From: Rugalucina vietnamica
Taxonomy: Eukaryota; Mollusca; Bivalvia; Lucinida; Lucinidae
Length of the DNA: 64,000 nucleotides
Assembly: GCA_964017185.1 (NCBI GenBank)
Contig: OZ024874.1
Span: forward strand, 37,486,721 to 37,550,720
Direction of reading: 5' to 3'
Program-made: the position numbers and the translations under genes
The notes under the pieces: generated by a model
Database searches by the model: none
Told to the model about the DNA's origin: nothing
Seen by the model: the letters and a program-made list of their open reading frames with translations, nothing else
Part shown: positions 1,372 to 64,000 of the stretch, in pieces
Layout: each line of letters opens with the position of its first letter
Position numbering within the stretch: position 1 is the stretch's first letter

Positions 1372-2812
1372 GTAAGAATTGATTAACGACAAAGTCAAAT
1401 TTCTTTATTAATTCAACTTTTGTTTCTACAGATTTTAGGTAAATTGCAGTAGAATTTATTAGCTCACCTGAGCCGAAGGCTCACAAGGTGAGCTTATAGG
1501 ATGGCCATGCTCTGGCGTCTGTCTGCGTCGGCATCCGGCGTCGGCGTCCAACGTCGTCCACAATTTCAAAGATCTTCTCCTCTGAAACCCCTTGACCAAC
1601 CAATCAAAGCCAAACTTCATGTGGAGCATCCTTAGGATGGGGGAACAAAAGTTTAGATATAAATGAATTTGGTCACATGACCAAGATGGCCGCCATGGTT
1701 TTTATTGTAAAAACCATAAAAAATCTTTTTCTCTGGAACAGGTGGATTGATTTCAACGAAACTTGGTATGTAGCATTAGGGACTCTGGCCCATCATAGTT
1801 TATATAAATCATGACCTTTGGTTGACCTTGACCTATTTTACAGCAAGCTCAATTTTGGTTACATAGGCTTTTCGATGGAAGAAAGTGAAAACATTGATTT
1901 TTTCAGGAAGTTTTGTAGCCTGTGACCTGAAAGTTGGTAGATTTAGACAACAAGTTGAGCTAATGAAGTGTTGTGAGTATAGCAGGTCATGGTCACTTCT
2001 TGACCTTGGCCAAAGGTCATTTACAAATTAAATGTGAGACTTAAATTTTCTCAGTAACCACTCGACCAATCAAAGCCAAATTTTATATGTAGTATCCTTG
2101 GGATGGAGGAACAAAAGTTTATATAAATGGTCACGGTCACATCACCAAGATGGCCGCCATGGCTATAAATAGCAAAAGCCTTTAAAAATCTTCTTCTTCA
2201 GAACTGGAAGGCCTTTGATTTTGAAACTTGGCATGAAGCATCAAAGAGAGAAGCTCTACAAAGTTTATATACGTAAATCATGACCCTGGGATGACCTTGA
2301 CCTGTTTTACAGCAATGTCAACATAGGTTGCCCATGCATTTGAATGGGGAAAATTGTCAAAATGTCATTTGAAGGGAAAAACTTTATGAAAATGCGCAAA
2401 TGGACAGAAGATTTATGATTTCTGAAAAAAATTGACCCCAGGGGCAGGTCTGCCCCCACCCCGGGGCAATATACATGTACAAGGGTTGTCCCAAAAGTTC
2501 CATTACACTCACTGGTTTGCCATAATAACAGCACATTAGATCTTATAACAAGTTGTCATCAAGTCTTAGGGCTTTTTGGGTAAATTTTTGTACGACTGCT
2601 TGCATCTGTTTTGAACACTTGCACCCCTACTGCAGCGGAGCAGGTCTAATGACGTTGCCGTTAATTGTGATTTTTAGCTCACCTGAGCCGAAGGCTCACA
2701 AGGTGAGCTTATAGTATAGTAGTCGAGCCGTTGTCTGTGCGTCCGTCCGTCCACACTTTCAAATACTAATATCTCCGCAACTAGTCAGCCAATTGCAATC
2801 AAATTTTATCAG

Positions 2813-3057
2813 GCGGCCCCCGTGGCCGAGTGGTTAAGAGCGCTGATATTTCATTACCGCACTTAACCATTCGATCATCTCACCGCTGTGACTGGTGTGG
2901 GTTCGAGCCCCGCTCTGGCCACATGTGAGACAAGCCAAGTTCTGCTTGCGGGTGTGTCAGGTGGTTTTTCTCGGGGTTCTCCCGTTTTCGCCCCACCTAC
3001 TGATTGGCCCGTCTCATATGAGCTGAAATAATCTTGAAAGGGACGTAAAACTGAATC

Positions 3058-3080
<23 letters not shown>
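2813..3080 (+). mobile_element. tRNA-derived SINE, full length, with 12-bp target duplication
   Basis: Begins GCGGCCCCCGTGGCCGAGTG with a pol III A box (TGGCCGAGTGG) and B box (GGTTCGAGCCC near 2900), like a tRNA-Ser/Leu head. A conserved body (GAGACAAGCCAAGTTCTGC) and the 3' end TTGAAAGGGACGTAAAACTG lead into a run of A. It is flanked by perfect 12-bp copies of AAATTTTATCAG (2801-2812 and 3081-3092), the mark of LINE-assisted retrotransposition. Related copies lie at 25465-25687 and 56841-57025. Confidence 0.9.
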
Positions 3081-3088
<8 letters not shown>

Positions 3089-3199
3089 TCAGAAGCATCA
3101 TTGGGATGGGGGAAAGATTGCATAAGGTTTTGAGCCAAGTCGGATCAGAACTCTGGTTTCCATGGCAACAGATAGCTCCCATTGAGTTATTATGGGGAA

Positions 3200-4990
3200 A
3201 ATGTTGTGGCCACTCTAGTAACTTCATTTTTGATTGGATCTTTTTCATTCTTGCAGGTAACAAGGACAACCATAAGATCTCGGACGAGTTCGAATTTCGG
3301 CCAGGTTCGACTTCAAATTGCGGAGTTAGCTGCCCTTTAGCTTCTCGAAAAATCCCCATAGACTTATAATGGGAAAAATGTTTTGGCCACTCTAGCGCCT
3401 TTATTTTTCATTGGATCTTCTTCATTCTTGCAGGTAGCAAGGACAACTAGAATATCTTGGATGGGTTCGAATTTCAGCCAGATCCGACCTCTGACTGTGG
3501 AGTTAGCTGCCCTTGAGTGATTGAAAAATCATTATTTTGTGTTGTGGCCACTCTAGCGCCTTCAATTTTGATCGGATCTTCTTCATACTCGGAAGTACCT
3601 GTAACAAGGATAGCCATAAGATCTGGGATGAGTTCGAATTTCAGCCAGATCCGACCCTTGACTGCAGAGTTAGCTGCCCTTGACTGTGTGAAAAATCAAT
3701 ATTTAGTGTTGTGGCCACTCTAGTGCCTTCATTTTTATTCGGATCTTCTTTATTCTTGGAAGTAACAAGAACATTCGTAACATCTCGGATGAGTTCGAAT
3801 TTCGACCAGATCCAACCTCTGACCGGGGAGTAATCTGCCCTTGAGTGTTTGAAAAATCAATATTTAGTGTTGTGGCCACTCTGGTGCTTTCAATTTTGAT
3901 CGGATCTTCTTCATACTTGGAAGTAACAAGGATAGCCATAACATCTCGGATGAGTTCAAATTTCAGCTAGATCCAACCCTTGACTGCAGAGTTATCTGCC
4001 CCTGACTGTGTGAAAAATCAATATTTAGTGTTGTGGCCTTTATTTTTATTCGGATCTTCTTTATTCTTGGAAGTAACAAGGACATCCATAACATCTTGGA
4101 TGAGTTAGAATTTCGACCAGATCCGACCTCTGACTGCGGAGTTGTCTGCCTTTGAGTGTTTGAAAAATCCATATTTTGTGTTGTGGCCACTCTAGCATCT
4201 TTGTTTTTCAGTGGATCGTTTTTCAGTGGATCTTCTTCATTCTTGCAGGCAACAAGGATAACTACAATATCTCGGATGAGTTCGAATTTCGACCAGATCC
4301 AACCTCTGACCACGGTGTTATCTGCCCTTGAGTGTTTGAAAAATCAATATTGAGTGTTGTGGCCACTCTGGCGCTATCAATTTTGATCGGATCTTCTTCA
4401 TACTTGGAAGTAACAAGGATAGCCATAACATCTCGGATGAGTTCGAATTTCAGCTAGATCGGACCCTTGACTGCAGCGTTATCTGCCCCTGACTGTGTGA
4501 AAAATCAATATTTAGTGTTGTGGCCTTCATTTTTATTCGGATCTTCTTTATTCTTGGAAGTAACAAGGACATTCATAACATCTCGGATGAGTTCAAATTT
4601 CGACCAGATCGGACCTCTGACTGCGGAGTTATCTGCCCTTGAGTGTTTGAAAAATCAATATTTTGTGTTGTGGCCACTCTAGCATCTTTGTTTTACACTG
4701 GATCTTCTTCATTCTTGCAGGTAACAAGGATGATTACAATATCTCATATGAGTTTGAATTTCGGCCAGATCCGACCTCTGACTGCGGAGTTAGCTGCCCT
4801 TTAGTGTTTGAAAAATCAATATTTTGTATTGTGGCCACTCTAGCGCCTTCAATGATCTTCTGCATTCGTGGAAGAAATAAGAATAACCATAACATCTTGG
4901 ATGAGTTCGAATTTGAGCCAGATTCGACCCTGGACTGCAGAGTTAGCTGCCCTTGAATGTTTGAAAAATCAATTTTTAGTGTTGTGGCCA
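3200..4990 (+). repeat. 161-bp satellite array inside type B element, about 11 copies
   Basis: The block TTGTGGCCACTCTAG recurs at about 161-bp spacing (GGCC at 3208, 3385, 3546, 3713, 3874, 4035 and onward). Each unit contains GATCTTCTTCATTCTTG, GTAACAAGGA, GAGTTCGAATTTCGRCCAGA and GTTTGAAAAATCAATATTTT. Several units carry the same 60-70 codon open frame because the period and stop positions are conserved. That frame is a property of the array, not a gene. The same satellite fills 49340-51660. Confidence 0.9.
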
Positions 4991-6546
4991 CTCCAGCATC
5001 TTCAGTTTTGATCAGATCTTCAAAAAACAAAAAAAAAAAACAAAACAAAAAAAAAAAAAAAAAAAAAAAAACGCTTTGTCCAGTGACTGTACTTGTTGAC
5101 TCTCAGGTGAGCGATCGTTGCCCTTGGGCTACTTGTTTCTTCATATTTTGCAGTTTGTATACATATGCTACATACAAGAAATCTATTTGAAAATTATATT
5201 TATATTTAGCATAATGATGCTGTAGCATATATTTGGAAATTTAAGTAAAATAATTATAAGCAAATCATCAAAATAATACTATAGATACCAGTCATGCAAA
5301 ATAAGAAACATTAACTAATGTTATCCACTGTTAATCACTTCCCATGTTTCAGTATGTCAAGTAATTTTACTGTTGGTTTAAATATCGTTTTAAAAATACA
5401 TGTATGTGTTGTGTAGAAGTATTGAGTCCCCAACTAATATGAATCTAAACAATTGCTAGGTTTCCATTAAAGAACATATTTTCAATGCTTAAACATAATG
5501 ACTCTGTAATTTTGCTCCGCACTTTTTTGCCGATGTCATAATTTTGACGTTGAGATTTTATAGGTAGGCTTCTTTATTTTTCTCCCAAACTATCAAATTG
5601 TCATCAACTTTTATAAGATCATAATTAAATGGTGTGCATAGAATGGTAAGGCTGGTATATTTTCGAAATGATCACATTATACCTATATTGATTTAGCAGT
5701 TTGCGAAAAATGGAAACTCCAGAAACATTTTGCATAATTTGACTTGCTCTGGTCATGCCTACTTATGGTTACCAAGGTAACTGTAGCAGTGAGGTCATGA
5801 GTGATGTGTTGTACAGTAAAATAAGTTCCACTATGGCCAATAATTCTGCATGAGAAACTTTGATTGCTTCCTGTTATGTGTTCAGAATAAAAAGCATTTG
5901 TAACGGGACTTTTGGGACAAGTCACGTATGTTACCATAATATTCAAAGATCTTCTTCTCTAAAACCGTTTGGCCAATCAAAGCCAAACGTCATGCATTCT
6001 TAGGAAGGGAGAATGGAAGTTTATATAAATGGGTAAGGACACATGACCAAGATGGCCACCATGGTTATAAATTTAATAGCAAAAACCATTAAAATTTTCT
6101 TCTCCAGAACCAGATTTTGAAACTTGGCATGAAGCATCAGAGAGGAGCTCTACAAAGTTTATATAAATCATGACCCTGGGATGACCTTGACCTATTTTAC
6201 AGCAAGGTCAACATAGGTTGCCCATGCATTTGAATGGGGAAAATTGTCAAAATATCATTTGAAGGGAAAAACTTTATGAAAATGTGCAAATGGACAGAAG
6301 ATTTATGATTTCTGAAAAAAATGGACCCAAGGGGCAGGTCTGCCCCCACCCTGGGGCAATATACATGTATGTTACCATAATATTCAAAGATCTTCTCTAA
6401 AACCATGTGGCCAATCAAAGCCAAACGTTATATGGAGCATTCTTACGAATGGAAGTTTATATAAATGGTCAAGGTCACATGACCAAGATGGCCACCATGG
6501 CTATAAATAGCAAAAAACCTTTTAAAATTTTCCTCCAGAACTACGA

Positions 6547-26233: not shown

Positions 26234-26305
26234 CATGCTCACCTGTGCTGAAGGCTAAAAAGAGGAGCCAATAGGATGGCCATGCTTAGTTGTCTGTCCA
26301 TTGTC

Positions 26306-26347
<42 letters not shown>

Positions 26348-35398: not shown

Positions 35399-35404
35399 TT
35401 CTTA

Positions 35405-39284: not shown

Positions 39285-39799
39285 AGCTCACCTGAGCCGA
39301 AGGCTCACAGGTGAGGTTATAGGATAGGGAGGCACCCGGCGTCCGTCCGTAGGCGTCGTCGTCGTCCACCATTTTCAAAGATCTTCTTCTCTGAAACCGC
39401 TTGGCCTATCAAAGCCAAATTTTATGTGAAGCATCAATAGGAAGGGGAATTAATGTGTATATAAGAAATCCAGGTCACATGACCAAGATGGCCGCCATGC
39501 CCATATATGGTAAAAACCCTTCAAAATCTTCTTCTCCAGAACCAGTTCAACGAAACTTGGCATGAAGCATCGATGGCTCAAGCACTACAATGTGTATATA
39601 AATCGTGACCCTGTGATGACCTTGACCTATTTTATGGCAAGGTCAACATAGGTCGCCAATGCATTTGAATGGGGAAAAATTTTAAAATGTCATTTAAAGT
39701 GAAAATCTTGCAGGAAATGGGCAGTAGGACTGAATATTGATGATTCTGAAAAAAAAAAATGACCCCAGGGGCTCATCTGCCCCCACCCCAGGGCAATAT

Positions 39800-44376: not shown

Positions 44377-45312
44377 AGAGAAATATGTTTAACCCTGCAT
44401 ACCCCAGTTTTGCTATACAAAAATGGGGTATAAGGGGTTTATATTACATGGAATTGTTAGCCTGATTAGCCTATAGATCTGTGTCTATGCTGACTTGATT
44501 TTTAGCTCACCTGAGCCGAAGGCTCACAGGTGAGCTTATAGTATACCCATGCTCCGGCGTCCGTCCGTCGTCGTCCGTCCGTCCGTCGTCCACCATTTTC
44601 AAAGATCTTCTTCTCTGAAACGGCTTGGCCAATCAAAGCCAAATTTTATATGAAGCATCTATAAGAAGGGGGAACCAATGTGTATATAAGAAATCCAGGT
44701 CACATGACCAAGATGGCCGCCATGCCCATATATGGTAAAAACCCTTCAAAAATCTTCTCCAGAACCAGTGGAGCGATTTCAAAGAAACTTGGCATGAAGC
44801 ATTGATGGCTCAAGCAGTTCAATGTATATATAAATCATGACCCTGTGATGACCATGACATATTTTACGGCAAGGTCAACATAGGTCGCCAATGCATATGA
44901 ATGGGGAAAACTTTTAAAATGTCATTTAAAGTGAAAGTCTTGCAAGAAATGGGCATTAGGACTGAATATTAATGATTCTGAAAAAATTGGACCCCAGGGG
45001 CTCATTTGCCCCCACCCTGGGGCATAACACATGTATATTACCATAATATTCAAACATCTTCTCCTCTGAAACCGCTTGGCCAATGAAAGCCAAATTTTAT
45101 ATGAAGCATCTATAGGAAGGGGGAACCAATGTGTATATAAGAAATCCAGGTCACATGACCAAGATGGCCGCCATGCCCATATATGGTAAAAACCCTTCAA
45201 AAATCTTCTTCTCTGGAATAGGTTGACCAATTTCAAAGAAACTTGGCATGAAGCCCCAGGGGCTCATTTGCCCCCACCCTGGGGTATAATACATGTATAT
45301 TACCATAATATT

Positions 45313-47444: not shown

Positions 47445-48470
47445 AATATTCAAACATCTTCTCCTCTGAAACTGCTTGGCCAATCAAAGTCAAATTTTAT
47501 ATATAGCATCTATAGAATAGGGGAATCAATGTATATATAAATAATCTAGGTCACTTGACCAAGATGGCTGCCATGCCCATATATGGTAAAACCCTTGAAA
47601 AATCTTCTCTGGAACGGGTTGACCGATTTCAAAGAAACTTGGCATGAAGCATGGATGGCTAAAGTCCTACAATGTATATATAAATCATGACCCTGTGATG
47701 ACCTTGACCTATTTTACGACAAGGTCAACATGGGTCGCCAATGCATTTGAATGGGGAAAACTTTTAAAAAGTCATTTGAGGTGAAAATCTTGCAAGAAAT
47801 GGGTAGTAGGACTGAATATTAATGATTCTGAAAAAAAATTGACCTAAGGGCTCATATGCCCCACCCCGGGGCAATATACATGTATATTACCATAATATTC
47901 AAACATCTCCTCTGACACCAATTGGCCAATTAAAACCAAATTTCATGTGAAGCATCTATAGGATGAGGGAACCAATGTATATATTAATAATCTAGGTCAC
48001 ATGACCAAGATGGCTGCCATGCCCATATATGGTAAAAACCCTTCAAAAATCTTCATCTCTGAAACCAATGGACTGATTTCAATGAAACTTTGTGTGAAGC
48101 ATTGATGGCTAAAGTACTACAATGTATATACAAATCATGACCCTGTGATGACCTTGACCCAGTTTATGGCAAGTTCAACATAGGTTGCCTATGCATTTGA
48201 ATGGGGAAAACTGTTAAAATGCCATTTGAAGGGGAATTAAAACCAGCGGGAAATTGGCAAATGGACAGAATATTCATTATTCTGTAAAAAGAAAATGGCC
48301 AAAGGGCCTCATCTGCCCCTGCACTGGGGTTAAATACCATAATAGTCAAACATGTTTATTGGTATATGCAGCAGATGTCAGGTGAGCGTTTACAGGACCA
48401 TTGGTCCTCTGGTTTAAGTTGTTAAAAAAAACTGAAATTTTCAGTAGAAAAAATTCGATATTTTTCTTAT

Positions 48471-49077: not shown

Positions 49078-51760
49078 AGCTCACCTGAGCCGAAGGCTCA
49101 CAAGGTGAGCTTATAGTATAGTAGTCGAGCCGGCTTCCGTCCGTGCGTTCGTCCGTGCGTCCGTCCGTCCGTTCACAATTTCAATCTTGAATATCTCTAA
49201 GACAACAAGTCCAATCGCAATCAAATTTTATCTGAAGCATCATTGAGGAGGGGGAAAGGTTGTGTTAGGTTTTGGGCTAGGTCAGATCAGAACTCTGGTT
49301 TCCATGGCAACAGATAGCTCCCATTGAGTTATAATGGGGAAAATGTTGTGGCCACTCTAGCAACTTCATTTTTGATTGGATCTTCTTTATTGTTGCAGGT
49401 AACAAGGACAACTACAATATCTCAAATGGGTTTGAATTTCAGTCAGATCCGACCTCTGACTGTGGAGTTAGCTGCCCCTGAGTGTTTGAAAAATCATTTT
49501 TTGTGTTTTGTGGCCACTCTAGCGCCTTCATTTTTATTCGGATCTTCTTTATTCTTGGAAGTAACAAGGACATTTATAAGATCTCGGATGAGTTCGAATT
49601 TCGACCAGATCCAACCTCTGACTGAGGGGTTATCTGCCCTTGAGTGTTTGAAAAATCAATATTTTGTATTGTGGCCACTCTAGCGCCTTCATTTTTATTC
49701 TGATCTTTTTCGTTCTTGCAGGTAACAAGGACAACTATAATATCTCGTATGGGTTCCAATTTCAGCCAGATCTGACCTCTGACTGTGGAGTTAGCTGCCC
49801 TTGAGTGTTTGAAAAATCATTATTTTGTGTTGTGGCCACTCTAGCGCCTTCAATTTTGATCAGATCTTCTTCATACAGTTCAACCTCATTATAACGCGCC
49901 TCACTATAGTGCGTTTTTCAATATAACACGGCCATGTCATGGCTCCCAAATTAATTATTTTGTTATATATCTATTGTAAATAACCTCATTATAACACGGT
50001 TCACTTATAACACGGTCTGTTTCCATGGACCCCAAAGATAGCGTTATGTTGTGGCCACTCTAGCGACTTCAATTTTGATTGGATCTTCTTCATACTTGGA
50101 AGTAACAAGGATAGCCATAACATCTTGGACGAGTTCGAATTTCAGCCAGATTCAACCCTTGACTGCAGAGTTATCTGCCCTTGACTGTGTGAAAAATCAA
50201 TATTTAGTGTTGTGGTCACTCTAGTGCCTTCATTTTTATTAGCTCACCTAAGCCGAAGGCTCACAAGGTGAGCTTATAGTATAGTAGTCGAGCCAGCGTC
50301 CGTCCGTGCACCCGTCCGTCCTTCACAATTTCAATCTTGAATATCTCTAAGACAACAAGTCCAATCGCAATCAAATTTTATCTGAAGCATCAATGAGGAG
50401 GGGGAAAGGTTGCATTAGGTTTTGGGCCAGGTCAGATCAGAACTCTGGTTTCCATGGCAACAGATAGCTCCCATTGAGTTATAATGATGAATATGTTGTG
50501 GCCACTCTAGCAACTTCATTTTTGATTGGATCTTCTTCATTCTTGCAGGTAATAAGGACAACCATAACATCTCGGATGAGTTCGAATTTCGGCCAGGTTA
50601 GACCTCAGATTGCGGAGTTAACTGCCCTTGAGCGCCTGGAAAAATCCCCATAGACTTATAATGGGAAAAATGTTGTGGCCACTCGAGCACCTTTATTTTT
50701 CATTGGATCTTCTTCATTCTTGCTGGTGACAAGGACAACCATAATATCTCGGATGGGTTTGAATTTCAGCCAGATCCGACCTCTGACTGTGGAGTTAGCT
50801 GCCCTTGAGTGTTTGAAAAATCATTATTTTGTGTTGTGGCCACTCTAGCGACTTCAATTTTGATTGGATCTTCTTCATACTTAGAAGTAACAAGGATAGC
50901 CATAACATCTTGGATGAGTTCGAATTTCAGCCAGATTCAACCCTTGACTGCAGAGTTATCTGCCCTTGACTGTGTGAAAAATCAATATTTAGTGTTGTGG
51001 CCACTCTAGCGCCTTCATTTTTATTCGGATCTTCCTTATTCTGGGAAGTAACAAGGACATCCATAACATCTTGGATGAGTTCGAATTTCGACCAGATCCG
51101 ACCTCTGACTGCAGAGTTATCTGCCCTTGAGTGTTTGAAAAATCCATATTTTGTGTTGTGGCCACTCTAGCATCTTTGTTTTTCAGTGGATCTTCTTCAT
51201 TCTTGCAGGTAACAAGGATAACTACAATATCTCGAATGAGTTCAAATTTCGACCAGATCCGACCTCTGACTGCGGAGTTATCTGCCCATGAGTGTTTGAA
51301 AAATCAATATTTTGTGTTGTGGCCACTCTAGCATCTTTGTTTTTCAGTGGATCTTCTTCATTCTTGTAGGTTACAAGAATAACTACAATATCTCAGATGA
51401 GTTCAAATTTCGGCCAGATCTGACCTCTGACTAGGGAGTTAGCTGCCCTTTAGTGTTTGAAAAATCAATATTTTGTATTGTGGCCACTCTAGCGCCTTCA
51501 ATTTTGATCGGATCTTCTTCATTCTTGGAAGAAACAAGGATAACCATAACACCTTGGATGAGTTCGAATTTGAGCCAGATTCGAACCTGTACTGTGGAGT
51601 TAGCTGCCCTTGAATGTTTGAAAAATCAATTTTAAGTAATGTGGCCACTCCAGCATCTTCAATTTTGATCAGATTTTAAAAAAAAAAAAAAAGACCACTT
51701 TGTCCAGTGACTGTACTTGTTGACTCTCAGGTGAGCGATCATTGCCCTTGGGCTACTTGT
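49078..51760 (+). mobile_element. type B hairpin-ended element(s) with 161-bp satellite core, second head inside
   Basis: Head at 49078 with the AGTAGTCGAGCCGGC spacer, then the 161-bp array (GTTGTGGCCACTCTAGC units), then at 50241 a second head (AGCTCACCTAAGCCGAAGGC) with the same spacer and a fresh array, and a single tail ending GGCTACTTGT at 51760. Either one element inserted into another that lost its 3' half, or unequal exchange produced a double head. ORFs of 60-120 codons (49324-49683, 50809-51009, 51131-51331) are in-array frames. Confidence 0.8.
49876..50046. mobile_element. small TE fragment with pogo/Tigger-like end
   Basis: CAGTTCAACCTCATTATAAC just after a TA resembles pogo/Tigger terminal repeats, and CCTCATTATAACACGGTTCA recurs inside. 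The right end (GATAGCGTTAT) does not form a clear matching inverted end, and one satellite unit is missing here. Probably a deleted insertion. Confidence 0.4.
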
Positions 51761-51761
51761 T

Positions 51762-53264
51762 AGCTCACCTGAGCCGAAGGCTCACAAGGTGAGCTTATAT
51801 TATACCAATCAGTCCGTTCGTCCATTGTCCACAATTTCAAAGATCTTCTTCTCTGAAACCGCTTGGCCAATCAAACTGAAATTTTATGTGGAGTAGCCAT
51901 GGGTAGGTGGAACGAAAGTTTGTTCACATCTTGATCACATTACCAAGATGGCCGCCACACCCATATACATGTATGGTAAAAACCACTCAAAAATCTTCTT
52001 CTCCAGAACCGGTGGGCGGATTTCCACGAAACTTGGTATGTAGCATCGAAGACTCCAGCCCATCATAGTTTGAGCAAATGATGACCCTGGGATGACCTTG
52101 ACCTATTTTACGGCAAGGCCAATTTTGGAAACATAAGCTTTTACATGGGGAAAAAGTGAAAACTATGGATTTTTTGAAAACTATCGCAGCCTGAGACCTG
52201 AAAAGTGGTAGATGCAGAGAACTAATGGAGTATATGAAGGTATGCAATCAATTTAGGTCAAGGTCATCTCTTGACCTTGGCCGATCTGTCGTCCATACAC
52301 ACTTTTCAAAGATCTTCTTCTCTGAAACGGCTTGGCCAATAAAAGTGAAATTTTGTGCATAGCATCCATGGATATGGGGAACGAAAGTTTGATCGTGAAA
52401 TCTGGGTTACCTGACCAAGATCGCCACCACGCCCATATATGGTAAAAACCACTCAAAAATCTTCTTCTCCAGAACGAGCAGGCCCATTTTCCCGAAACTT
52501 AGTATGTAGCACTTTGGACTCCAACCCATCATAGTTTGATCAAATGATGACCTGAGGATGACCTTTACCTATTTTACGGCAAGGTCAATTTTGGAAACAT
52601 AGAGGCTTTTAAATTTTAGATTTTTTGAAAACTATTGCAGCCTGAGACCTGAAAAGAGGTAGTAGATGCAAACAACTAATGGAGTAGATGAAGGTATGTG
52701 ATTAATTTAGGTCAAGGTCATCTCTTGACATTGGCCGGTCTGTCGTCCATACACACTTTTCAAAGATTTTCTCTGAAACCCCTTGGCCGATCAAAGTGAA
52801 ATTTTATGTGGAGCATCCATGGGTAGAGGGAACAAAAGTTTGATTGCGAAATCTGGGTCATATGACCAAGATGGCCGCCACGACCATATATGGTAAAAAC
52901 CACTCAAAAATCTTCTTCTCCAGAACGGGCAGGTAGATTTTCACGAAACTTAGTATGTAGCATTTTGGACTCCAGCCCATCGTAGTTTGATCAAATGATG
53001 ACCCTGGGATGACCTTGACCTATTTTACGGCAAGGTCAGTTTTGGAATCGTAGGCTTTTACATGGGAAAAAGTTAAAGCTACTGATTTTTTGAAAACTAT
53101 TGCTGCCTGAGACCTGAAAAGTGGTAGATGCAAACAACTAATGGAGTGGATGAAGGTATGTGATTAATTAAGGTCAAGGTCAATTTTGGAAACATAGGCT
53201 TTTACATGGGAAAAAGTGACAACTAGGTCTCAGGTAAGCGTTTACAGGACCAATGATCCTATGG
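51762..53264 (+). mobile_element. type A-like element with a different, about 480-bp monomer
   Basis: Head immediately follows the type B tail (TTAGCTCACC at 51760). Monomers begin near 51830, 52295 and 52755 (TCTGAAACCGCTTGGCCAAT) and carry blocks absent from ordinary type A units: GGCTTTTACATGGGAAAAAG, CAGCCTGAGACCTGAAAAGT and CTAATGGAGTAGATGAAGGT. The tail at 53228-53264 is mutated (CAATGATCCTATGG). The same monomer fills 62830-64000. Confidence 0.8.
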
Positions 53265-53326
53265 AAACTATTGCAGCCATAGACCTGAAACATGACCAAG
53301 ATGGCCGTCATACCCATATATGGTAA

Positions 53327-55087
53327 ACAAGTAGCCGAAGGGCAACGATGGCTCACCTGAGAGTCATCAAGTCCAGTCACAGGACAAAGTAATTGGGGTT
53401 TTTACCATATATGGGCATGATGACCATCTTGGTCATGTGACCTGGAAACCCTACTTACATCAGCAGAAGAGCTCTTGTCTGGATTGTGTATCCTCTTTTC
53501 TGCCATTTTGGTTCACTTGGAAAAATCATCTAACAAGGTCAGGGTCCTATAATGACACCCGGGATAGGGGCTTTTGACCCAAGGGGCAAGATTGGCAGGA
53601 TTTATGTAGAGCCCCACATGACAATGTTGTATATCAAATATGCAAGCTTTGTGTCATGCTGTTGCAGAGAAGATTTTTTCATATATTTCCATTATAAGTC
53701 TATGGTAGATAATGACATGCCTGGGGCATGGCCCATATGGACCCCAGTGGCACGGTTGGCAGGATTTATAAAGAGGACCACTATACATTGCTATAAACAA
53801 AATATGAAAGCTCTGGGCCTTGTGGTTTCGGAGAAGAAGATTTTTTTATGTTTTACCCATGACCCCCCCCCCCCCTCTGGGCGGGGCCCGTATGGACCCC
53901 GGGGGCACGGTTGGCAGTATTTATAAAGAAGACCACTATACATTGCTACAAACAAAATATGAAAGCTCTGGGCCTTGTGGTTTCGGAGAAGAAGATTTTT
54001 TTATGTTTTACCCATGACCCCCCCGGGGTGGGGCCCGTATGGACCCCAGGGGCATGATCGGCAGGATTTATAAAGAGGACCACTATACATTGCTACACAC
54101 AAAATATGAAAGGTTTGGGTCTTGTGGTTTCGGAGAAGACAATTTTTTAAAGTTTTTTCCATGACGCCCCCGGGGCGGGGCCCGTATGGACCCCAGGGGC
54201 ACGGTTGGCAGGATTTATAAAGAGGACCACTATACATTGCTACTGACAAAATATGAAAGCTCTGGGCCTTGTGGTTTCGGAGAAGAAGATTTTTTTTATG
54301 TTTTTCCCATTGTAAGTCTATGCGAGCTAATGACCCCCGGGGTGGGGCCATTTTTGACCCCAGGGGCATGATTGGCAGGATTTATAAAGAGGACTTATAT
54401 ACATTGTTACATAAAAAATATGAAAGCTCTGGGCCTTGTGGTTTCCGAGAAGAAGATTTTTTATGTTTTCCCCATGACGCCCCCAGGGCGGGGCCCGTAT
54501 GGACCCCAGGGGCATGGTTGGCAGGATTTATGAAGAGGAACACTAGACATGGCTTCACACAAAATATGAAAGCTCTGGGCCTTGTGGTTTCTGAGAAGAA
54601 GATTTTTTTATGTTTTTTTATGTTTTTCCCATTGTAAGTCTATGGGAGCTATCTGTTGCCATGGAAACCAGAGTTCTGATCCGACCTGGCCCAAAACCTA
54701 ACACAACCTTTCCCCTTCCTCAATGATGCTTTAGATAAAATTTGGTCATGATTGGCCTTGTTGTCTTAGAGATATTCAAGTTTGAAAATGTGGATGGACG
54801 CACAGACGCACGGACGGACGCTGGCTCGACTACTATACTGTAAATTCGGAAATTTTCGCGTGACTTTTATTTCGCGAATTTTCTATTTCCAAATAATCAG
54901 CGAGTTCTTGAATTCGCGAGTGAGTGTCCATTTATTCTATAAAGTTTATTGTGACTCTTTATTAGCGAGAACTTTGAATTCGCGAGGCAACCAATTCGCG
55001 AATATTAGCGAAAATTAAGTTCTCGCGAATATTTCCGGATTTACAGTACTATAAGCTCACCTTGTGAGCCTTTGGCTCAGGTGAGCT
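53327..55087 (-). mobile_element. type C hairpin-ended element, minus strand, with a third satellite core
   Basis: Read on the minus strand: head AGCTCACCTGAGCCAAAGGC from 55087, the GTCGAGCCAGCGTCCGTCCG spacer near 54820, a core, and the type B-style tail (GTCCAGTGACTGT absent, but CTCTCAGGTGAGCC and GGCTACTTGT present) ending at 53327. The core is about seven units of roughly 155 bp (ACACTATACATTGCTACA, GAAAGCTCTGGGCCTTGTGG, CGGGGCCCGTATGGACCCC) between 53550 and 54620. The long frames here (53552-53926, 54269-54637 and the minus-strand ones) are array artefacts. The MITE at 54838 interrupts the head. Confidence 0.8.
54838..55046. mobile_element. 209-bp TA-flanked MITE (CTGTAAATTCGGAAATTTTCGCG ends)
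   Basis: CTGTAAATTCGGAAATTTTC and its near-perfect inverted copy are flanked by TA (54836-54837, 55047-55048). Removal restores the hairpin-element head (ctactaTActataag), as in the copies at 2700 and 49110. Rich in TTCGCGAA motifs. Confidence 0.9.
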
Positions 55088-55102
55088 AAAAAAAAAACAG
55101 CC

Positions 55103-55166
55103 ACTTTGTACAGTGACTGTACTTGTTGACTCTCAGGTGAGGGATCGTTGCCCTTGGGCTACTTGT
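55103..55166 (+). mobile_element. isolated type B tail next to the last exon
   Basis: ACTTTGTACAGTGACTGTAC, CTCAGGTGAGGG and CCCTTGGGCTACTTGT match the ends of the type B elements at 5080 and 51700. The rest of the element is missing, replaced by the inverted type C element. It ends 36 bp before the HTATSF1-like last exon. Confidence 0.8.
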
Positions 55167-55706: not shown

Positions 55707-55765
55707 CTTAGGTTCTAAGAGGATTAGCTTAGGTTCTGTCTTTAAAGAAAGTGGATGACATAATG

Positions 55766-55771: not shown

Positions 55772-55832
55772 AGGGTGTTGTCACCCATCAATATCTGTTG
55801 CGATGAAAGAAATGTTCATTTGTATTTCTAAA

Positions 55833-56165: not shown

Positions 56166-56840
56166 AATTTGATGGCATTTGGCATTTTTAGCTCACCTGA
56201 GCCGAAGGCTCACAAGGTGAGCTTATAGGATGTCCATGCTCCGTCAGTACGTCGTCTGGCCACAATTTCAAAGATCTTCTTCTTTGACACTGCTTGGCCA
56301 GTCAAAGCCAAACTTCAGTTAATATAACTGGTCCAGGTCACATGACCAAGAAGGCTGCCATGCCAATATATGGTAAAAACCAAAAAACAATCTTCTCTGG
56401 AACTGATTGACCAATTTCAAGGAAACATGTTATGTAGCATCAGGGACTCTGGCCCATTATAGTTTATTTAAATCATGACCTTGGGTTGACCTTGACCTAT
56501 TTTATGGCAAGGTCATTTTTGGTTACTTAGGCTTTTCAATGACAAAAAGTGAAAACTTTTGAATTTTTCAAGAAGTTTTGTAGCCTGTGACCTGAAAGTT
56601 GGTAGATACAGACAACATGTTGTGCCAATGAAGTGTTGTGAGTATAAAAGGTCAAGGTCATTTCCTGACCTTTGCCTAAGGTCATTTACAAATTAAATGT
56701 AAAACTTAATTTTCTCAGTAACCACTTGACCAATCAAAGCCAAAATTTATATGTAGTATTCTTGGGATGGGGGAACAAAAGTTTATATAAATGGTCAAGG
56801 TCACTTATTCAAGATGGCTGCCATGGCTATAAATAGCAAA

Positions 56841-57025
56841 AAACCACCGCTGTGTCTGGTGTGGGTTCAAACTTGGCTACATGTGAGACAAGCAAAGTTC
56901 TGCTTGCGGGTGTGTCAGGTGGTTTTTCTCGGGGTTCTCCCGTTTTTGCCCTACCTACTGATTGGCCTGTCTCATATATGCTGAAATAATCTTGAAAGGG
57001 ACGTTAAATTGAATTAAAAAAAAAA
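56841..57025 (+). mobile_element. SINE, 5'-truncated copy
   Basis: Has the body (GTGAGACAAGCAAAGTTCTG), the 3' end CTTGAAAGGGACGTTAAATT and an A-rich tail of the 2813 family, but starts after the A box. AGCAAAA flanks it (56834-56840 and 57026-57032). Confidence 0.85.
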
Positions 57026-57360
57026 AGCAAAATTCTTAAAAAAAATCTACTCCTGAAGCAGAAGGCCTACCATTTTGAAACTTGGCATGAAGCATCAAGG
57101 GGAGGAGTTCTACAAAGTTTTTATAAATGATGACCCTGGGATGACCTTGACCTATTTTATGGCAAGGTCAACATAGGTCGCCCATACATTTGAAGGGAAA
57201 AATTGTCAAAATGTCACTTGAAGGGAAACACTTTATGGAAATGTGCAAATGGACTAAAAATTTATGATTCTGAAAGAGATCTCTGAAACCGCTTGGCCAA
57301 TCAAAGCCAAAGTTCATGTGGAGCATTCTTTGGAAGGGAGAATGAAAGTTCATATAAATG

Positions 57361-57404
57361 GTCAAGGTCACATGACCAAGATGGCCGCCATGGCTATAAA
57401 TAGC
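57361..57404 (+). promoter_or_regulatory. promoter-like module in the type A monomer (best example)
   Basis: In 44 bp: TCAAGGTCA (57362-57370, an extended nuclear-receptor half-site as bound by FTZ-F1/ERR proteins), AAGATGGCCGCC (57378-57389, close to a YY1 core) and CTATAAATAG (57394-57403, a good TATA box). The same order recurs in type A monomers near 2140, 6465, 27225, 34255 and 34980. The motif matches are seen; activity is conjecture. Confidence 0.3.
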
Positions 57405-57783
57405 AAAAACCTTTAAAAATCTTCTTCTCCAGAACCAGAAGGCCTATGATTTTGAAAGTTGTCATGAAACATCAGGGAGAGGAGCTCTACAAAGTTTATA
57501 TAAATCATGACCCTAGGATTACATTGACCTATTTTATGGCAAGGCCAACATAGGTTGCCCATGCATTTGAATGGGGAAAATTAGTATAATGTAATCAAAT
57601 AGGGGAGAATCTTATTGGTCAGAACTGTAAGACCCATGATTTTGGAACTTTGCCTGAAGCATCAGTGTCTGAAGCTCTACAAAGTTTGTATAAATCAAGA
57701 CCCTGGGATGACTTTGACCCATTTTATGGCAAGGTCAGCTGAGGTTGCATATCCCAGATCTCAGGTGAGTGTTGGTCCCCTGG

Positions 57784-58436
57784 TATTCATTGCTTGTGCA
57801 ATTTTACAGAATTTACTTAATTTTTAGGTGAATGGCTTAAATATCTCAGAATTTCTTAACTAATTACAGACCTTCGAAAAGAATGTTTCCTGAAATATCT
57901 TCTTTGTCAAGTAAATTTAGATCAGGCTAAGTAAACCTAATTTTTCTTTTTCTTGTTTTCTCCCCCCCCCCCCCCCCCCCCCCCGCCTGTTTTAGAAAAA
58001 AAAGAAGAGGGACATATTTTTCGGCTTTCTGTCATTCCCTTCTTCCACCCCCTATAGGAGTATGTACCTTGTGTGCCCAACTCCTCCTACATTTTTATTC
58101 CATGCTTTGAAGATATGCATATGGTTTGAATATAATCCTCAGATTAATTTTTCGCAACTTGAACTTTGTCATTTTCGGGTATTTTAACAATGAAAGTGAA
58201 TGGACAGTGAGTACATTGTGTATGCAACTCCTCTTACAGTTTTATTCTGATTCTTTTCAAACTTAAACAATGTCTTAACCATGTTTTGAAGATATGCATG
58301 TGGTTTGGATATAATCCTCAAATTAATTTTTCTTACTTTTTTTTTTTTTTTTTTCGCAGTTTGAACTTAAGTCTTTTTTCGTGTACTTTGACAATGAAAG
58401 TGAATGGACAGTTGGTGATTTTCTCCCACAGTTTTA
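57784..58436 (+). repeat. intergenic stretch with poly(C) and a diverged tandem repeat
   Basis: A 23-bp C run (57962-57984) is followed by two units (about 58095 and 58282) of GAAGATATGCATRTGGTTTG, ATAATCCTCARATTAATTTT and ATGAAAGTGAATGGACAG. Two more units of this repeat lie at 60390-60670. No gene was seen. Confidence 0.7.
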
Positions 58437-60361
58437 AGCTCACTTGAGCCGAAAGCCATGCTGTTATCCGTCCTTAGTCGTCTGTCCTCTGTCTGTCTAC
58501 AATTTCAAAAATCTTCTCCTCTGAAACCGCATGGCCAATTTAAGCAAAACTTCATGTGGAGCATCCTTAGGAAGGGGAAAGAAAAGTTTATATAAATTGC
58601 CCAGGTCACATGACCAAGATGGCAGCCATGGCTATAAATAGCAAAAACCTTTAAAAACTTCTCCAGAACCAGAAAGCCTATGACTTTGAAACTTGGCATG
58701 AAGCATCAGTGAGAGGAGCTCTACAAAGTATATAAAAATCATGACCCTGGGATGATCTTGACTTATTTTACAGCATTGTTAACATAGGCCACCCATGCAT
58801 GTGAATGGGGAAAATTGTCAAAATGTCATTTGAAGAGAGAAACTAATAGGAAATGGGCAAATGGGCTGAAGATTTATGATTTTGAAAAAAAAAAAATGGA
58901 CCCTAGGGGCTGGTCCTCCCCAACCATGGGGCAGTGGGGCAATATACATGTTTATTACATGTATATTAGTATAAACAGACAGTATTTCAGACAATGCTTT
59001 CAGCCCATTGCATATTTTGTCATATTCTATGACCTGGGTTTTTCCCCATTAAATATATGTTGCTAAATTTAGAACACTGTATCTATCATGGAAATGTACA
59101 TTGATTGATCTCTTGCGATTGATGGCTTGCAGTCCAGCCAGGGACTAATTTCCCTCCTGGCCCACCCCCTGGTGAGGTATTGTCAATTTGGCGTGTCACC
59201 AGTTAACCATTCAGATGATGAACTACAGATATTAACTACTGTTTAATTTATTTAAATGAAGACTTTATGTCCCAATGAACTTTTTTAGTCATGCAGGGAC
59301 TTTATGCAGGCTGTTGAAAACAATCCATTTTCAAATGATTTTTTTTTTCCTGCTCATTCTTTTTAAAAGTTTTGTATTAAAAGAAAGTGTTATACAATAA
59401 AACAATTGTTGACTATTGAGTCATTGAATATGATGTGATATCCAACAGAGACTACCAATATTGAAGAGGCGAAGGCTCGAAGCCTCAGTCAATATTGGTA
59501 GTCTCTGTTGAATATCACATCATATTCAATGACTCAATAGTCAATAACTGTATAATATTACATAATATTCAAAGGCCTTCTTCTTTGAAACCGCATGGCC
59601 AATCAAAGCCAAAGTTCATATAAAGCATGTTAGCAAAGGGGACAGAAAATAACTATAAATGGTCCAGGTCACAAGACCCAGATGGTCGCCATGGCTATAA
59701 ATAGCAAAAAACTTTAAAAATCTTCTTCTCAAGAACCAGAAGGCCTATGATTTTGAAACTCTACAAAGTTTATATAAATCATGACCCTGGGAAGACCTTG
59801 ACCTAATATATGGCAAGGTCAACATAGGTGGCCCCATTTGAATGGGGAAAATTGTCTAAATGTCATTTGAAGAGAAAAACTTGAAGGAAATGGGCAAATG
59901 GACTGAAGATTTATGATTCTAAAAAACATTGGACCCCAGGGGCTCATCTGCCCCTACCCGGGGCAATGTGCATGTATATTACCATAATATTCAAAGATCT
60001 TCTCTATAACCGCTTGGCCAATCAAAGCCAAATTTTTTAAGAAACATCCATAAGAATAGAAAATCAATTTATATATAAATAGAATATGTCACATAACCAA
60101 GATAGATGCCATGCCCATATATGGTAAAAACCCTTAACAAATCTTCTTCTCTGGAACTGGTTGACCAATTTCAACGCAACTTGGCATGAAGCATCAATGA
60201 CTCAAGTGCTACACTGTATATATAAATCATGACCTTGTGATGACCTTGATCTGTTTTTGGCAAGGTCAATATAGATTGTCCATAACAATAATTGTCACAC
60301 AAGTTTATTGGTATATATCCCAGCTCTCAGGTGAGCGTTTACAGGACCATTGGTCCTCTAG
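58437..60361 (+). mobile_element. type A hairpin-ended element, diverged head
   Basis: Head AGCTCACTTGAGCCGAAAGC has lost the second half of its hairpin. Monomers near 58510, 59585 and 60005. The tail CTCAGGTGAGCGTTTACAGG plus AGGACCATTGGTCCT ends at 60361. About 600 bp of unrelated sequence (about 58960-59560), including a long palindrome, interrupts it. Confidence 0.8.
59408..59547. repeat. 140-bp near-perfect palindrome
   Basis: TTGACTATTGAGTCATTGAA, ATGATGTGATAT and AACAGAGACTACCAATATTGA are mirrored almost exactly on the right (TCAATATTGGTAGTCTCTGT and onward), with a loop containing GAGGCGAAGGCTCGAAGCCTC, itself a small hairpin. Confidence 0.9.
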
Positions 60362-60877
60362 TATTCCAATTCTTTTGAAACTTAACAAATGTCTTGACCA
60401 TGCTTTGAAAATATGCATGTGGTTTGGATATGATCCTTAGATTAATTTTTATCACTTTTTTTTTCGCAATTTTACAATGGAAGTGAATGGGCAGTGGCTA
60501 CCTTGTGTGCGCAACTCCTCCTTTTTATTCCAATTTTGATGTCTTCACCATCCATTGAAGATATGCATGTAGTTTGGATATAATCCTCAGTTTAATTGTT
60601 ATTACTTTTTTTGCAATTAGAGCTTAGTCATTTATCGGGCATTTACTCTGAGAAAGTGAATATTGTTTGGATATACGTATGTTATTCTCAGATTACATTC
60701 ATGTAATTTAACAATCAAGGCGGGGGGCATAAATTCTCTGAATTTGCTTGTTTCTTCAATAAATTGCTAAAGCAAACAAAAAGGCCATGATCACAGGAGA
60801 TTACATCAGGAGATTACCCAAGAGCTTCTTGGGGCCTAGGCACCCCCTCCTCCCTCCCCCACAAAAATGTACTTTTT
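60362..60877 (+). repeat. intergenic stretch with two diverged tandem units
   Basis: Units at about 60400 and 60557 match the repeat of 58095-58400 (GATATGCATGTRGTTTGGAT). Sequence after 60670 shows nothing recognisable. Confidence 0.65.
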
Positions 60878-61828
60878 AGCTCACCTGAGCCGAAGGCTCA
60901 CAGGTGAATTTATAGGTTAGGCAAGCACCTGGCGTCAGTTGTCCGCCCATCCGCCGGCATCGTCGTTGTCCACCATGTTCAAAAATCTTCCTCTCTGAAA
61001 CCCCTTTGCCAATCAAAGCCAAATTTCACAAGAAGCACCTATAGGAAGGGGGAACCAATGTGTTTATAAATAATCCAGGTTACATGACCAAGATGGCCAC
61101 CATGCCCATATATATAGTAAAAGCCCTTCAGAAATCTTCTCCTTAACCGGTGGACCGATTTCAATGAAACTTGGCATGTAGCATCTAGGCCTAAAATTTG
61201 ATAGTTCGTCTCTCACTAATGAGAAAGACCATCATTATTTCTTGAATAGTGCTGATGTGTGTTGGTGAGTTCTTTGATGGCTGACTAGGCCAATTCTGGC
61301 TCTAAACTGTCGGTTGCAAGTAGAGCAAGTCAATGTCATAGAGTCTGCTGGTGGCACATTTGTTTTGGCTTTGCGCTCTCTTCGCTTTCTTTCAGCTTCA
61401 CAGATTCTCTTCTTTTCATAGAGAGCTGCTCCTTTGTTGATGAGACCTCGCCACTTTGATCGCTCCTGTGCAGTCTGTTCCCAGGACCCCATTGGTATTT
61501 TGAAATCCTTCAGAGAGGCTTTGAGGGTGTCTTTGTAGCGTTTCTTCTGGCCACCTTGAGAGCGCTTTCCCTCCTGTAGTTCTCCATAGAAAACTTTCTT
61601 TGGAAGTCGCGCATCAAGGCCTAAAATACTAGTGTGTTCATAAATTATGAACCTTAGATACCTTGACCTATTTAATGGCAAGGTCAACATATAACCCATG
61701 CATTGGAATGGGAAAGATTGTTAAGTTGTCATTTGAATGAGCAAATGGACTGAAGATTTAAGAATCTTAAAAATTTGGACCCCATGGGTTGGTCTGCCCC
61801 CACCCTGGGGCAATATGCATGCTTGTTA
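60878..61828 (+). mobile_element. type A hairpin-ended element, 3'-truncated, with a LINE insertion
   Basis: Head AGCTCACCTGAGCCGAAGGC at 60878. One and a half monomers follow. It stops at CACCCTGGGGCAATATGCAT, where Penelope-like sequence begins. Split by the LINE fragment at 61198. Confidence 0.75.
61198..61610 (-). mobile_element. 5'-truncated LINE, 3' end of ORF2 (zinc finger)
   Basis: The minus-strand frame ending at 61235 contains GGQKKRYKDTLKASLKDF, WEQTAQERSKWRGLINKG, a basic ERKRRERKAK run and a CSTCNRQFRARIGLVSHQ C2H2-type finger. This is the C-terminal signature of a widespread animal non-LTR retrotransposon polyprotein. The reverse transcriptase and endonuclease are absent (5' truncation). 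A 17-bp target duplication with one mismatch (GCATCWAGGCCTAAAAT, 61181-61197 and 61611-61627) flanks it. The first 17 or so codons of the open frame are type A element DNA. Confidence 0.85.
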
Positions 61829-62304
61829 ATGCCCAGTTAATGCCCACTTAAACGATTTACCTGTTAAGTTTTCTGTTTGTGTCAATGAAGGCCAAGACAA
61901 ACTTCCTACGATGTATTGGTTACCTAAGCTTCACAAAAGACCATACAAAGCTAGATTTATTGCAAATTCTAGCTCTTGTACTACCACTGAACTTTCTAAA
62001 TTATTAACTTCCTGTCTTACTGCTATCAAATCTCATGTTATAAGATACTGTGAGACAGTGTATGAAACTTCAAATAAAAATTGGTTTTGGTCAATAAAAA
62101 ATCTGGTGAGGTGCTCAGTAAATTGAAGTGTAGAGGGTTCCGTGTGACAAGCTTGTCCACATATGATTTTTCTACTCTGTATACAACATTACCACATAAT
62201 CTAATAAAAGAAAAACTTCTGGATTTGATAGAGTGGACCTTCAAAAGGGCATTAAAAAAACTATGGTTCACTTTATTTGGCATGTAATGACAGAAAGGCT
62301 TTTT
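61829..62304 (+). pseudogene. Penelope-like element reverse transcriptase fragment, frameshifted
   Basis: The + frame reads LPTMYWLPKLHKRPYKARFI, then TTELSKLLTSCLTAIKSHVI, an early reverse-transcriptase region typical of Penelope-like elements. A one-base loss near 62095 shifts the frame; the match resumes as GEVLSKLKCRGFRVTSLSTY and DFSTLYTTLPHNLIKEKLLD, and shifts again at an A run near 62255. The catalytic core beyond this is missing because a type A element head begins in the T run at 62300. It is dead. Confidence 0.85.
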
Positions 62305-62819
62305 AGCTCACCTGAGCCGAAGGCTCACAAGGTGAGCTTATAGGATGGCCATGATCCGGCGTCCGTCCGTCCGTCAGCCGTCCGTCGTCCACAATTTCAA
62401 AGATCTTCTTATCTGAAACCGCTTGGCCGATCAAGTTGAAATTTTATGTGGAGCCTCCTTGGGTAAATTGAAGTGTAGAGGGTTCTGTGTGACAAGCTTG
62501 TCCACATATGATTTTTCTACTCTGTATACAACATTACCACATAATCTAATAAAAGAAAAACTTCTGGATTTGATAGAGTGGACCTTCAAAAGGGCATTAA
62601 AAAAACTATGGTTCACTTTATTTGGCATGTAATGACAGAAAGGCTTTTTAGCTCACCTGAGCCGAAGGCTCACAAGGTGAGCTTATAGGATGGCCATGAT
62701 CCGTCGTCCGTCCGTCCGTCCGTCGTCCGTCAGCCGTCCGTCGTCCACAATTTCAAAGATCTTCTTATCTGAAACCGCTTGGCCGATCAAGTTGAAATTT
62801 TATGTGGAGCCTCCTTGGG
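62118..62819 (+). repeat. direct tandem duplication, about 345 bp, nearly identical copies
   Basis: 62118-62462 and 62463-62819 both begin GTAAATTGAAGTGTAGAGGG (Penelope-like) and run through a type A head (62305 and 62650) to TGTGGAGCCTCCTTGG. They differ by a few substitutions and about 12 extra bases of CCGTC repeat in the second. The duplication therefore postdates the insertion of the type A element into the Penelope-like fragment. Confidence 0.9.
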
Positions 62820-64000
62820 TAGTGGCATTTCAAGTTTGATCACGAAGCAGGTCACATGACCAAGATGGCCGCTACGCCCATATATGGTAAAAACCACTCA
62901 AATATCTTCTTCTCCAGAACCCGGTGGGCCGATTTCCACGAAACTTGGTATGTAGCACTGGGGACTTCAGCCCATCATAGTTTGATAAAATGATGACCCT
63001 TGGATGACCATGACCTATTTTACGGCAAGGTCAAATTTGGAAACATAGGCTTTTACATGGGAAAAAGTGAAATCTATGGATTTTTTGAAAACTATTGCAG
63101 CCGGAGGCCTGAAAAGTGGTAGATGCAAACAACTAATGGAGTAGATGAAGGTATGTGATTAATATAGGCCAAGGTTATCTCTTGACCTTGGCCAGTCTGT
63201 TGTCCATACACACTTTTCAAAGATCTTCTTCTCTGAAACTGCTAGGCCAATCAAAGTGAAATTTTATGTGGTGCATCCATGGGTAGGGGAGACGAAAGTT
63301 TGATCGCGAAATCCAGGTCACATGACCAAGATGGCCGCCACGCCCATATATGGTAAAAACCACTCAAAAATCTTCTTCTCCAGAACCGGTGGGCCGATTT
63401 CCACGAAACTTGGTATGTAGCATCGGGGACTTCAGCCCATCATAGTTTGATAAAATGATGACCCTTGGATGACCTTGACCTATTTTACGGCAAGGTCAAA
63501 TTTGGAAACATAGGCTTTTACATGGGAAAAAGTGAAAACTATGGATTTTTGGAAAACTATTGCAGCCTGAGGCCTGAAAAGTGGTAGATGCAAACAACTA
63601 ATGGAGTAGATGAAGGTATGTGATTAATATAGGTCAAGGTCATCTCTTGACCTTGGCCAGTCTGTTGTCCATACACAGTTTTCAAAGATCCTCTTCTCTG
63701 AAACTGCGCGGCCAATCAAAGTGAAATTTTATTTGGAGCATCCATTGGTAGGGGAGACGAAAGTTTGATCGCGAAATCTAGGTCACATGACCAAGATGGC
63801 CTCCACGCCCATATGTGGTAAAAACCACTCAAAAATCTTCTTCTCCAGAACCGGTGGGCCGATTTCCACGAAACTTGGTATGTAGCATCGGGGACCTCAA
63901 GTCATCATAATTTGATAAAATGATGACCCTTGGATGACCTTGACCTATTTTATAGCAAGGTCAAATTTGGAAACATAGGCTTTTACATAGGAAGAAGTGA
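62650..64000 (+). mobile_element. type A-like element with 480-bp monomer, runs off the window
   Basis: Head at 62650, CCGTC-rich spacer, and three monomers near 62760, 63225 and 63690, highly similar to each other and to 51830-53240. No tail before the window ends. Confidence 0.85.

Follow-up and report, generated by a model that had tools for sequence, protein, structure and literature searches.

Hairpin-ended elements in the window

The window considered here, a stretch of 64,000 nucleotides from the bivalve Rugalucina vietnamica (assembly GCA_964017185.1, contig OZ024874.1, positions 37,486,721 to 37,550,720 of the forward strand), is populated by copies of one family of mobile element, in which a hairpin-forming head and one of two tails enclose a core of tandem satellite repeats. 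It is very probable that these copies are Helentron-associated interspersed elements (HINEs), non-autonomous elements that belong to a single Helentron family, and that they are mobilised by full-length Helentrons residing in the same genome. An earlier, sequence-only reading of this DNA had claimed more than ten copies with a common head, and this is amply borne out; the window holds 15 head motifs at up to three mismatches (11 of them exact; 14 on the plus strand and one on the minus strand), where 0.00 are expected by chance (100 shuffles). Across the genome the exact head occurs 19,144 times in 1.09 Gb. Both of the tails described by that reading also exist, with exact matches throughout the genome to the tail1 38-mer (8,806) and to the tail2 36-mer (1,239), and reversed-pattern controls gave no match for the head or for either tail. 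The subterminal inverted repeat (subTIR) of the tail matches 30 times in the window at up to two mismatches (1.39 expected); the inverted copy within the head is counted among the 30. These inverted repeats are at least 11 bp long (AGCTCACCTGAG against CTCAGGTGAGC(G)), and a palindrome, AGGACCATTGGTCCT or GCCCTTGGGC, lies close to the 3' end. As single-stranded DNA the head folds at -13 kcal/mol, and none of 200 shuffles was equally stable. Heads and tails are also paired in space: between 0.06 and 6.9 Mb of C1, a head lies in the correct order within 5 kb of 14 of the 58 exact tail1 copies (random mean 2.1, maximum 8) and of four of the six exact tail2 copies (random mean 0.24, maximum 3). 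The same interval contains nine same-strand pairs of head and tail1 in the wrong order, which are a sign of clustering, and two on opposite strands.

We mapped 14 insertions with their own head, plus one whose head is upstream of the window; one of these 15 elements is on the minus strand, and in every one the core has the orientation of the head. The real arrays of the window have periods of 441-465 bp (satellite A), 161 bp (satellite B) and 147 bp, while satellite C has a period of 147-165 bp. Elements with an A core and tail1, all on the plus strand, begin with E0 (1..1020), which is the 3' part of such an element with its head at L043:1172, A sequence at 684-962 and a tail1 from 987 with a degenerate end. 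E4 (34071..35399) has head, A core and tail1, as does E12 (58437..60362), in which the head has two mismatches and tail1 ends CTAGT; in both, empty paralogous sites match the joined flanks. The core is interrupted in E5 (39285..44289; A sequence at 39358-39799 and 42407-44207) and in E6 (44504..48413; 44595-45312 and 47443-48356), both of which retain head and tail1. E3 (26236..28090) combines a degenerate head (three mismatches) and A core with a degenerate tail1, and E11 (56190..57784) has a shortened tail1 variant after its head and A core. In two further copies, E1 (1461..2479), which is truncated, and E13 (60878..61821), head and A core are present and a tail was not found.

E14 (62305..64000, plus strand) has a 465-bp A-variant core and ends downstream of the window, where tail1 lies at about L044:746-782. 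Its two heads, at 62305 and 62650, were considered as separate insertions, and this was rejected because a 345-bp direct duplication (62245-62649), comprising flank and element start, is common to both; one flank has been duplicated locally and the two heads belong to one insertion. A similar 210-bp duplication with two heads occurs in the 3' flank of C3:54.25 (L068), a gene-carrying element described below.

The remaining elements share a B-type head, a leader and tail2. E2 (2676..5136, plus strand) has its B core at 3178-5021 and an insert in the leader at about 2813-3083; the insert resembles a short interspersed element (SINE), with a tRNA-like start judged by eye and an A run at its end, and is flanked by a direct repeat including TTTTATCAG. 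E7 (49078..55166, plus strand) has a B core and contains three other insertions. E8 (50241..51760, plus strand), also with a B core, sits in a B monomer of E7; E9 (51762..53265, plus strand), a copy with head, 451-bp A-variant core and tail1, follows it, a single T separating the tail of E8 from the head of E9; and E10 (53327..55087, minus strand) has B-type head and leader, a C core at 53573-54622 and tail2. The head region of E10 carries a palindromic insert (54837-55050, minus strand; ACTGTAAATTCGG...CCGGATTTACAGT) that resembles a miniature inverted-repeat transposable element (MITE).

A second HINE-like family is represented by an element that runs from about position 1840 of L043 to window position 687 and is inserted in an A monomer of E0, occupying 1-687 of the window. 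It comprises a head hairpin (ATCGCACCTGC...GCAGGGTGCGAT), a microsatellite, the 147-bp repeats and a tail, GCAGGTGCGAT, followed by the hairpin CTCCGCGGAG (671-680) and TTCTTGT. The 147-bp array (1-647), which the sequence-only reading had suggested as a further core of the main family (1-640), was therefore rejected as such, since it belongs to this separate Helentron-like element with its own head and tail. Satellite arrays at 12098-13096 (355 bp) and 13965-15687 (188/376 bp) have no family head or tail nearby.

Gene-carrying Helentrons with the same ends

The earlier reading had proposed a search for a Rep/helicase partner with the same ends, and such a partner was found. In a Helitron_like_N profile search of the genome, 150 of 409 candidates were scored, all of them above the cut-off and many within open frames of 2,500-3,500 aa. 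Flanks were taken for eight putative main-lineage loci and for lineages d, e, f and g, leaving aside six other Rep groups, and in seven of the eight sampled putative autonomous Helentrons the gene is enclosed by the head and one of the two tails.

One copy, C1:9279488-9292995 (C1:9.29), was read without gaps and has a single head and a single tail. From its 5' end it consists of TTTTT, the head AGCTCACCTGAGCCGTCAGGCTCACAAGGTGAGCT, a TCCG-type microsatellite, an array of 5.3 copies of a 455-bp repeat, a 2,521-aa open frame, 2.4 kb of non-coding DNA and tail1 CTCAGGTGAGCGTTTACAGGACCAATGGTCCTCTGGT, so that the satellite array is placed between the head and the open frame. The predicted protein has Pfam matches above cut-offs to Herpes_teg_N (which we read as OTU-like), DUF6570, Helitron_like_N (E 1.5e-27) and PIF1 (E 4.6e-14), and thus combines Rep and a PIF1-type helicase, with an HIH motif in the former and Walker A and Walker B motifs in the latter. 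Both parts are similar to Helraiser (7lcc; E 3.9e-4 for Rep and E 1.5e-9 for the helicase). Weak endonuclease matches, to Exo_endo_phos (E 6.5e-4) and Exo_endo_phos_2 (E 9.6e-4), are located at the C-terminus, as in Helentrons.

Six further loci are known from their flanks (C1:65.72 also around Rep), with frames of 2,542-2,738 aa from the profile search. In gene orientation, C1:62.73, C4:67.19, C4:8.29 and C3:54.25 have head, A core and tail1; C1:65.72 has head, a C core (165 bp) and a tail1-like end; and C7:14.40 has B-type head and leader, C core and tail2. The loci that encode Rep and helicase also have a TCCG-type microsatellite. For C1:62.73, a tail2 at a distance of 14.5 kb from the Rep match was rejected as the element's end because a tail1 lies nearer, and a worn tail-like site occurs between the arrays and the gene of C3:54.25. 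The eighth locus, C4:31.98, is without either end, and we do not assign it to the main lineage because 2.7 kb of its 3' region show 95% identity with lineage f.

The short copies can be tied to these partners by the subfamily rule of 80% identity over the last 60 bp, as given in the accessible text of Thomas et al. (2014, PMC4067079). Ten of eleven HINE tails have an autonomous partner at 80% or above and the eleventh (E0) reaches 78%; tail2 HINEs are 83-92% identical to C7:14.40, the element at 62650 is 92% identical to C3:54.25, and E5 and E6 are 83-85% identical to C1:9.29. In a tree of leader sequences HINEs are interleaved with autonomous copies and the C-core C1:65.72 stands beside B-core HINEs; the tree has 29 rows of about 150 bp with supports not printed, two rows (55087 and L001_2217) being mis-extracted and two leaderless ones (L008 and 26236) having been dropped.

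Insertion sites have a common character. In 32 of 33 copies the five bases that precede the head are rich in T (20 TTTTT, 6 TTATT, 3 TTTTA, 2 TTGTT and 1 TTTAT), while flank composition is ordinary from -6 outward (29 copies). Comparison with empty sites, also proposed by the sequence-only reading, gave clear results for three of 13 joined-flank queries (C3:54.25, E4 and E12) in the DNA compared. These show no target duplication beyond one or two ambiguous bases, and none of a fixed length. At C3:54.25 the element stands between GCCTTTTT and TTCAAAAT, where two neighbouring copies have GCCTTTTTCAAAAT; both ends of this gene-carrying element, which is about 18.5 kb long, are thereby traced to a single insertion. 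The T runs noted earlier as flanks are thus present, but they were already in the empty sites before insertion and look like a target preference.

Several distinct Rep lineages are present (L009-L038), with frames of up to 3,542 aa and near-identical copies (L026/L027 at 99.8%, L036/L037 at 99.6% over 3.5 kb), and the combination of near-identical copies and long frames suggests recent activity. In lineage f (L047, L048, L063, L064) a 2,422-aa frame has a 316-bp array about 1.5 kb to its 5' side and is closely followed by a 44-bp array, so that a second Helentron lineage has resident arrays, which suggests that the arrangement is general. Lineage g has a two-copy 192-bp repeat in its 5' flank, and the 147-bp repeat of the second HINE-like family recurs downstream of it (L052); in lineages d and e a comparable array outside the coding sequence was not seen in the 5' flank. 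Family heads and tails were not found as the own ends of lineages d, e, f or g in the flanks fetched. There are stray matches (GTCAGGTGAGC in d and a tail1-like hairpin with two mismatches in g), and the flank of lineage e holds a head-tail pair and a further head, which we read as nested HINEs.

Satellite cores and their exchange

By eye, the A unit has the structure of a higher-order repeat, in which a box that starts with ATCTTCTTCTCYGRAACC is present at least twice, and C has one box of this type per 147-165 bp. To this can be added a comparison of 45 pairs of cores scored against shuffles on both strands. The A sequence A1 matches C with a score of 70 (null maximum 40, 200 shuffles) and the 151-bp array of C3:54.25, called D, with 65.5 (null maximum 32.5), both similarities being confined to the forward strand; a homologous stretch of about 140 bp links the leader of B elements to box 1 of A (67.5, null maximum 38, 500 shuffles), and in C1:65.72 leader and C units alternate. 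Since some AT-rich pairs also reach 0/200 on the reverse strand (E-F, F-W3 and W3-W2), 0/200 alone is weak proof, and we rely on the large, forward-only excess of A-C and A-D; other forward passes, namely A1-W1 (a short block around TGACCTTGACCTA), D-W1, W1-A51762 and C-W3 (42, null maximum 36), are not built on. The cores at 51762 and 62650, which had been set apart as a class of about 480 bp, are A variants of 451 and 465 bp; a separate class was rejected, as A1 scores 414 against the 51762 core (null maximum 38). A period of 640 bp, also proposed for A, was not seen with TRF, which covered periods up to 500.

Neither A (168/200) nor C (27/200) shows significant similarity to the 161-bp B monomer. 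A 177-bp B variant (B177) matches the C cores of autonomous copies with a score of 41 over about 34 bp (null maximum 32.5, 0/500), but against the C array of the window it scores 20 (171/500), which is not significant, and for this reason we do not call B homologous to C. On these alignments, A, C, D and the leader make up one diverged family to which B is the exception. That all cores might prove to be one diverged family had been named beforehand as a finding that would tell against interchangeable cores, and it describes A, C, D and the B leader while leaving the B monomer outside. The real exchange is that of B against C: E10, with its C core, and E2, E7 and E8, with B cores, have B-type head, leader and tail2 in common. 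So much of the earlier proposal that the family swaps or captures satellites holds; capture by short copies is unneeded for A and C, because arrays of both are resident in putative autonomous elements. Most of the satellites look like a built-in part of the transposon and not like captured passengers.

Interpretation and known systems

The Helentron nature of the family, as the sequence-only reading had proposed, is strongly supported because the same ends are found on elements that encode Rep, helicase and a probable endonuclease, because insertion occurs at T-rich sites without clear duplication, and because tail-to-head junctions are frequent. In proposing a mechanism, we suppose that the Rep protein would nick at the head, that rolling-circle replication would proceed to the tail, consisting of subTIR and short hairpin, and that the product would insert beside a T run, with chains of elements arising from missed termination, serial insertion, or both. 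HINEs retain the 5' module, the array and the last 40-60 bp, and dispense with the gene region. A, C and the leader would have diverged from one ancestral repeat within the Helentron family, and one HINE subfamily carries B where its autonomous relative has C.

Some observations sit less comfortably with this account. The palindromes claimed for the tails are present, but these hairpins are short and their stability is not above that of shuffles (25/200 shuffles as stable or more for tail1, 128/200 for tail2), and exact pairing with a head accounts for only 14 of 58 tail1 copies. The endonuclease matches in the 2,521-aa frame fall under the family cut-offs. Continuous sequence covers only one autonomous copy, the others being represented by their flanks and the Rep match. 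Downstream of the tail assigned to it, C1:65.72 has additional ones, namely tail1 and a worn tail2. Nine of the 13 joined-flank queries met no empty site in the DNA compared, and that of E5 gave a weak one only (68-74% identity). An autonomous copy with a B core was not found among the seven main-lineage loci and, from flanks only, four other lineages. Transposition itself was not observed.

One might instead regard the copies as MITE-like elements moved by cut-and-paste through a DDE transposase, the inverted repeat being an ordinary terminal one; after all, an inverted repeat is present at the ends, and the similarly built pearl elements were originally reported as MITEs, according to the available parts of PMC7492417. 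We hold this to be most improbable, although no search was aimed at DDE transposases, because the inverted repeat is asymmetric, lies subterminally and has its hairpin at the tail only, the empty sites (including that of the gene-carrying C3:54.25) lack any duplication beyond one or two ambiguous bases, Rep and helicase are what the gene-bearing elements with the same ends encode, and tails often run directly into heads. A head follows within 12 nt of tail1 in 255 places and of tail2 in 44, where exact-motif densities lead us to expect about 1.0 and about 0.14, rough figures in which the second motif is a 14-base part of the head. In the 100 tail1 junctions listed, CTGGT and AGCTC are separated by T in 45 cases and by TT in 29; in the 44 tail2 junctions, 23 have no base and five have one base between CTTGTT and AGCTC. 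At C1:25298000-25303500 (L073) an array of whole 1.5-kb elements shows four units head-to-tail, with the outer two cut by the edges of the sequence examined, three units being 98.9-99.4% identical and the last about 88-90%. Such junctions and the tandem array would be indirect signs of rolling-circle transposition. Whether the chains reflect serial insertion at the T-rich end of an earlier copy, and not rolling-circle concatemers, is a closely balanced matter, and we place serial insertion slightly on the lesser side. Five junction sites were examined, namely the one in the window, three single ones elsewhere and this array; two of the five mix core types and subfamilies (B to A at 51760/51762 in the window, B to C at C3:4.64), and tail2 ends TTGTT, a pentamer also found before ordinary heads (2/33); the other three junctions are within one subfamily and core type, and the near-identity of the 1.5-kb array fits concatemers or later unequal exchange. 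Both processes may contribute.

As to the cores, they could be unrelated satellites captured from the genome, one after another, by non-autonomous elements. The B monomer gives this idea its substance, being without significant similarity to A or C and yet found in elements (E2, E7 and E8) whose head, leader and tail2 are of the type that accompanies a C core in E10. We nevertheless think capture unlikely, since homology, on the forward strand only, joins A, C, D and the B leader and since gene-carrying Helentrons contain A and C arrays between head and open reading frame; that gene-carrying and short copies have ends and array in common favours an intrinsic origin of the A and C repeats. We lean, with some reserve, towards the satellite arrays being a native, evolving 5' module of autonomous Helentrons and not cargo; new satellite families would arise and diverge inside the gene-carrying element and be passed to thousands of short copies, with B and C exchanged wholesale under an unchanged head, leader and tail. 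In this way a transposon would give satellite DNA a concrete means of dispersal across a genome.

The structural features of this family have counterparts in other organisms. In the accessible parts of Thomas et al. (2014, PMC4067079), DINE-1 elements and Helentrons resemble the present family in a Rep/helicase with C-terminal endonuclease (a weak match here), OTU-like protease domains, short subTIRs, a 3' palindrome and a preference for insertion at TT, and in HINEs that far outnumber their autonomous partners; satellite arrays inside autonomous copies, as found here, are not described for them in those parts. Bivalve pearl elements, likened by description, have short arrays of about 160-bp repeats between conserved ends and have since been recategorised as non-autonomous Helentrons, as stated in the available portions of PMC7492417. 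Shuffled Helitron loci and concatemer models are treated in a review of 2025 (PMC12628747, seen in part). Our literature search, with most subscription papers and Repbase outside its scope, gave no report of a bivalve autonomous Helentron that shares ends and satellite with HINEs, and four motif strings matched 12 papers in all, which by title and abstract seem to be unrelated biomedical ones.

The closest analogue is the Cg_HINE group of the Pacific oyster (Vojvoda Zeljko et al. 2020, PMC7492417), compared here by architecture only and not by sequence. In the portions of that paper available, Cg_HINEs likewise have a 5' subTIR accompanied by a complementary repeat close by, a microsatellite of the GTCC type, 140-180-bp satellite-like arrays of uniform orientation, a 3' subTIR with palindrome and T-rich insertion sites without target duplication, and one group combines related ends with unrelated repeats. 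The present family differs in that its A unit is a 441-465-bp higher-order repeat and in that gene-carrying elements have ends and array in common with the short copies. The same portions state that the autonomous partner of the oyster elements was unresolved and leave open whether their satellites are captured or intrinsic. Satellite-carrying HINEs were thus already known, and an autonomous Helentron with the same ends and satellite is the link added here; it is the valuable part of these results, as both questions raised by the oyster elements, what moves them and where their satellites come from, become directly testable in this genome.

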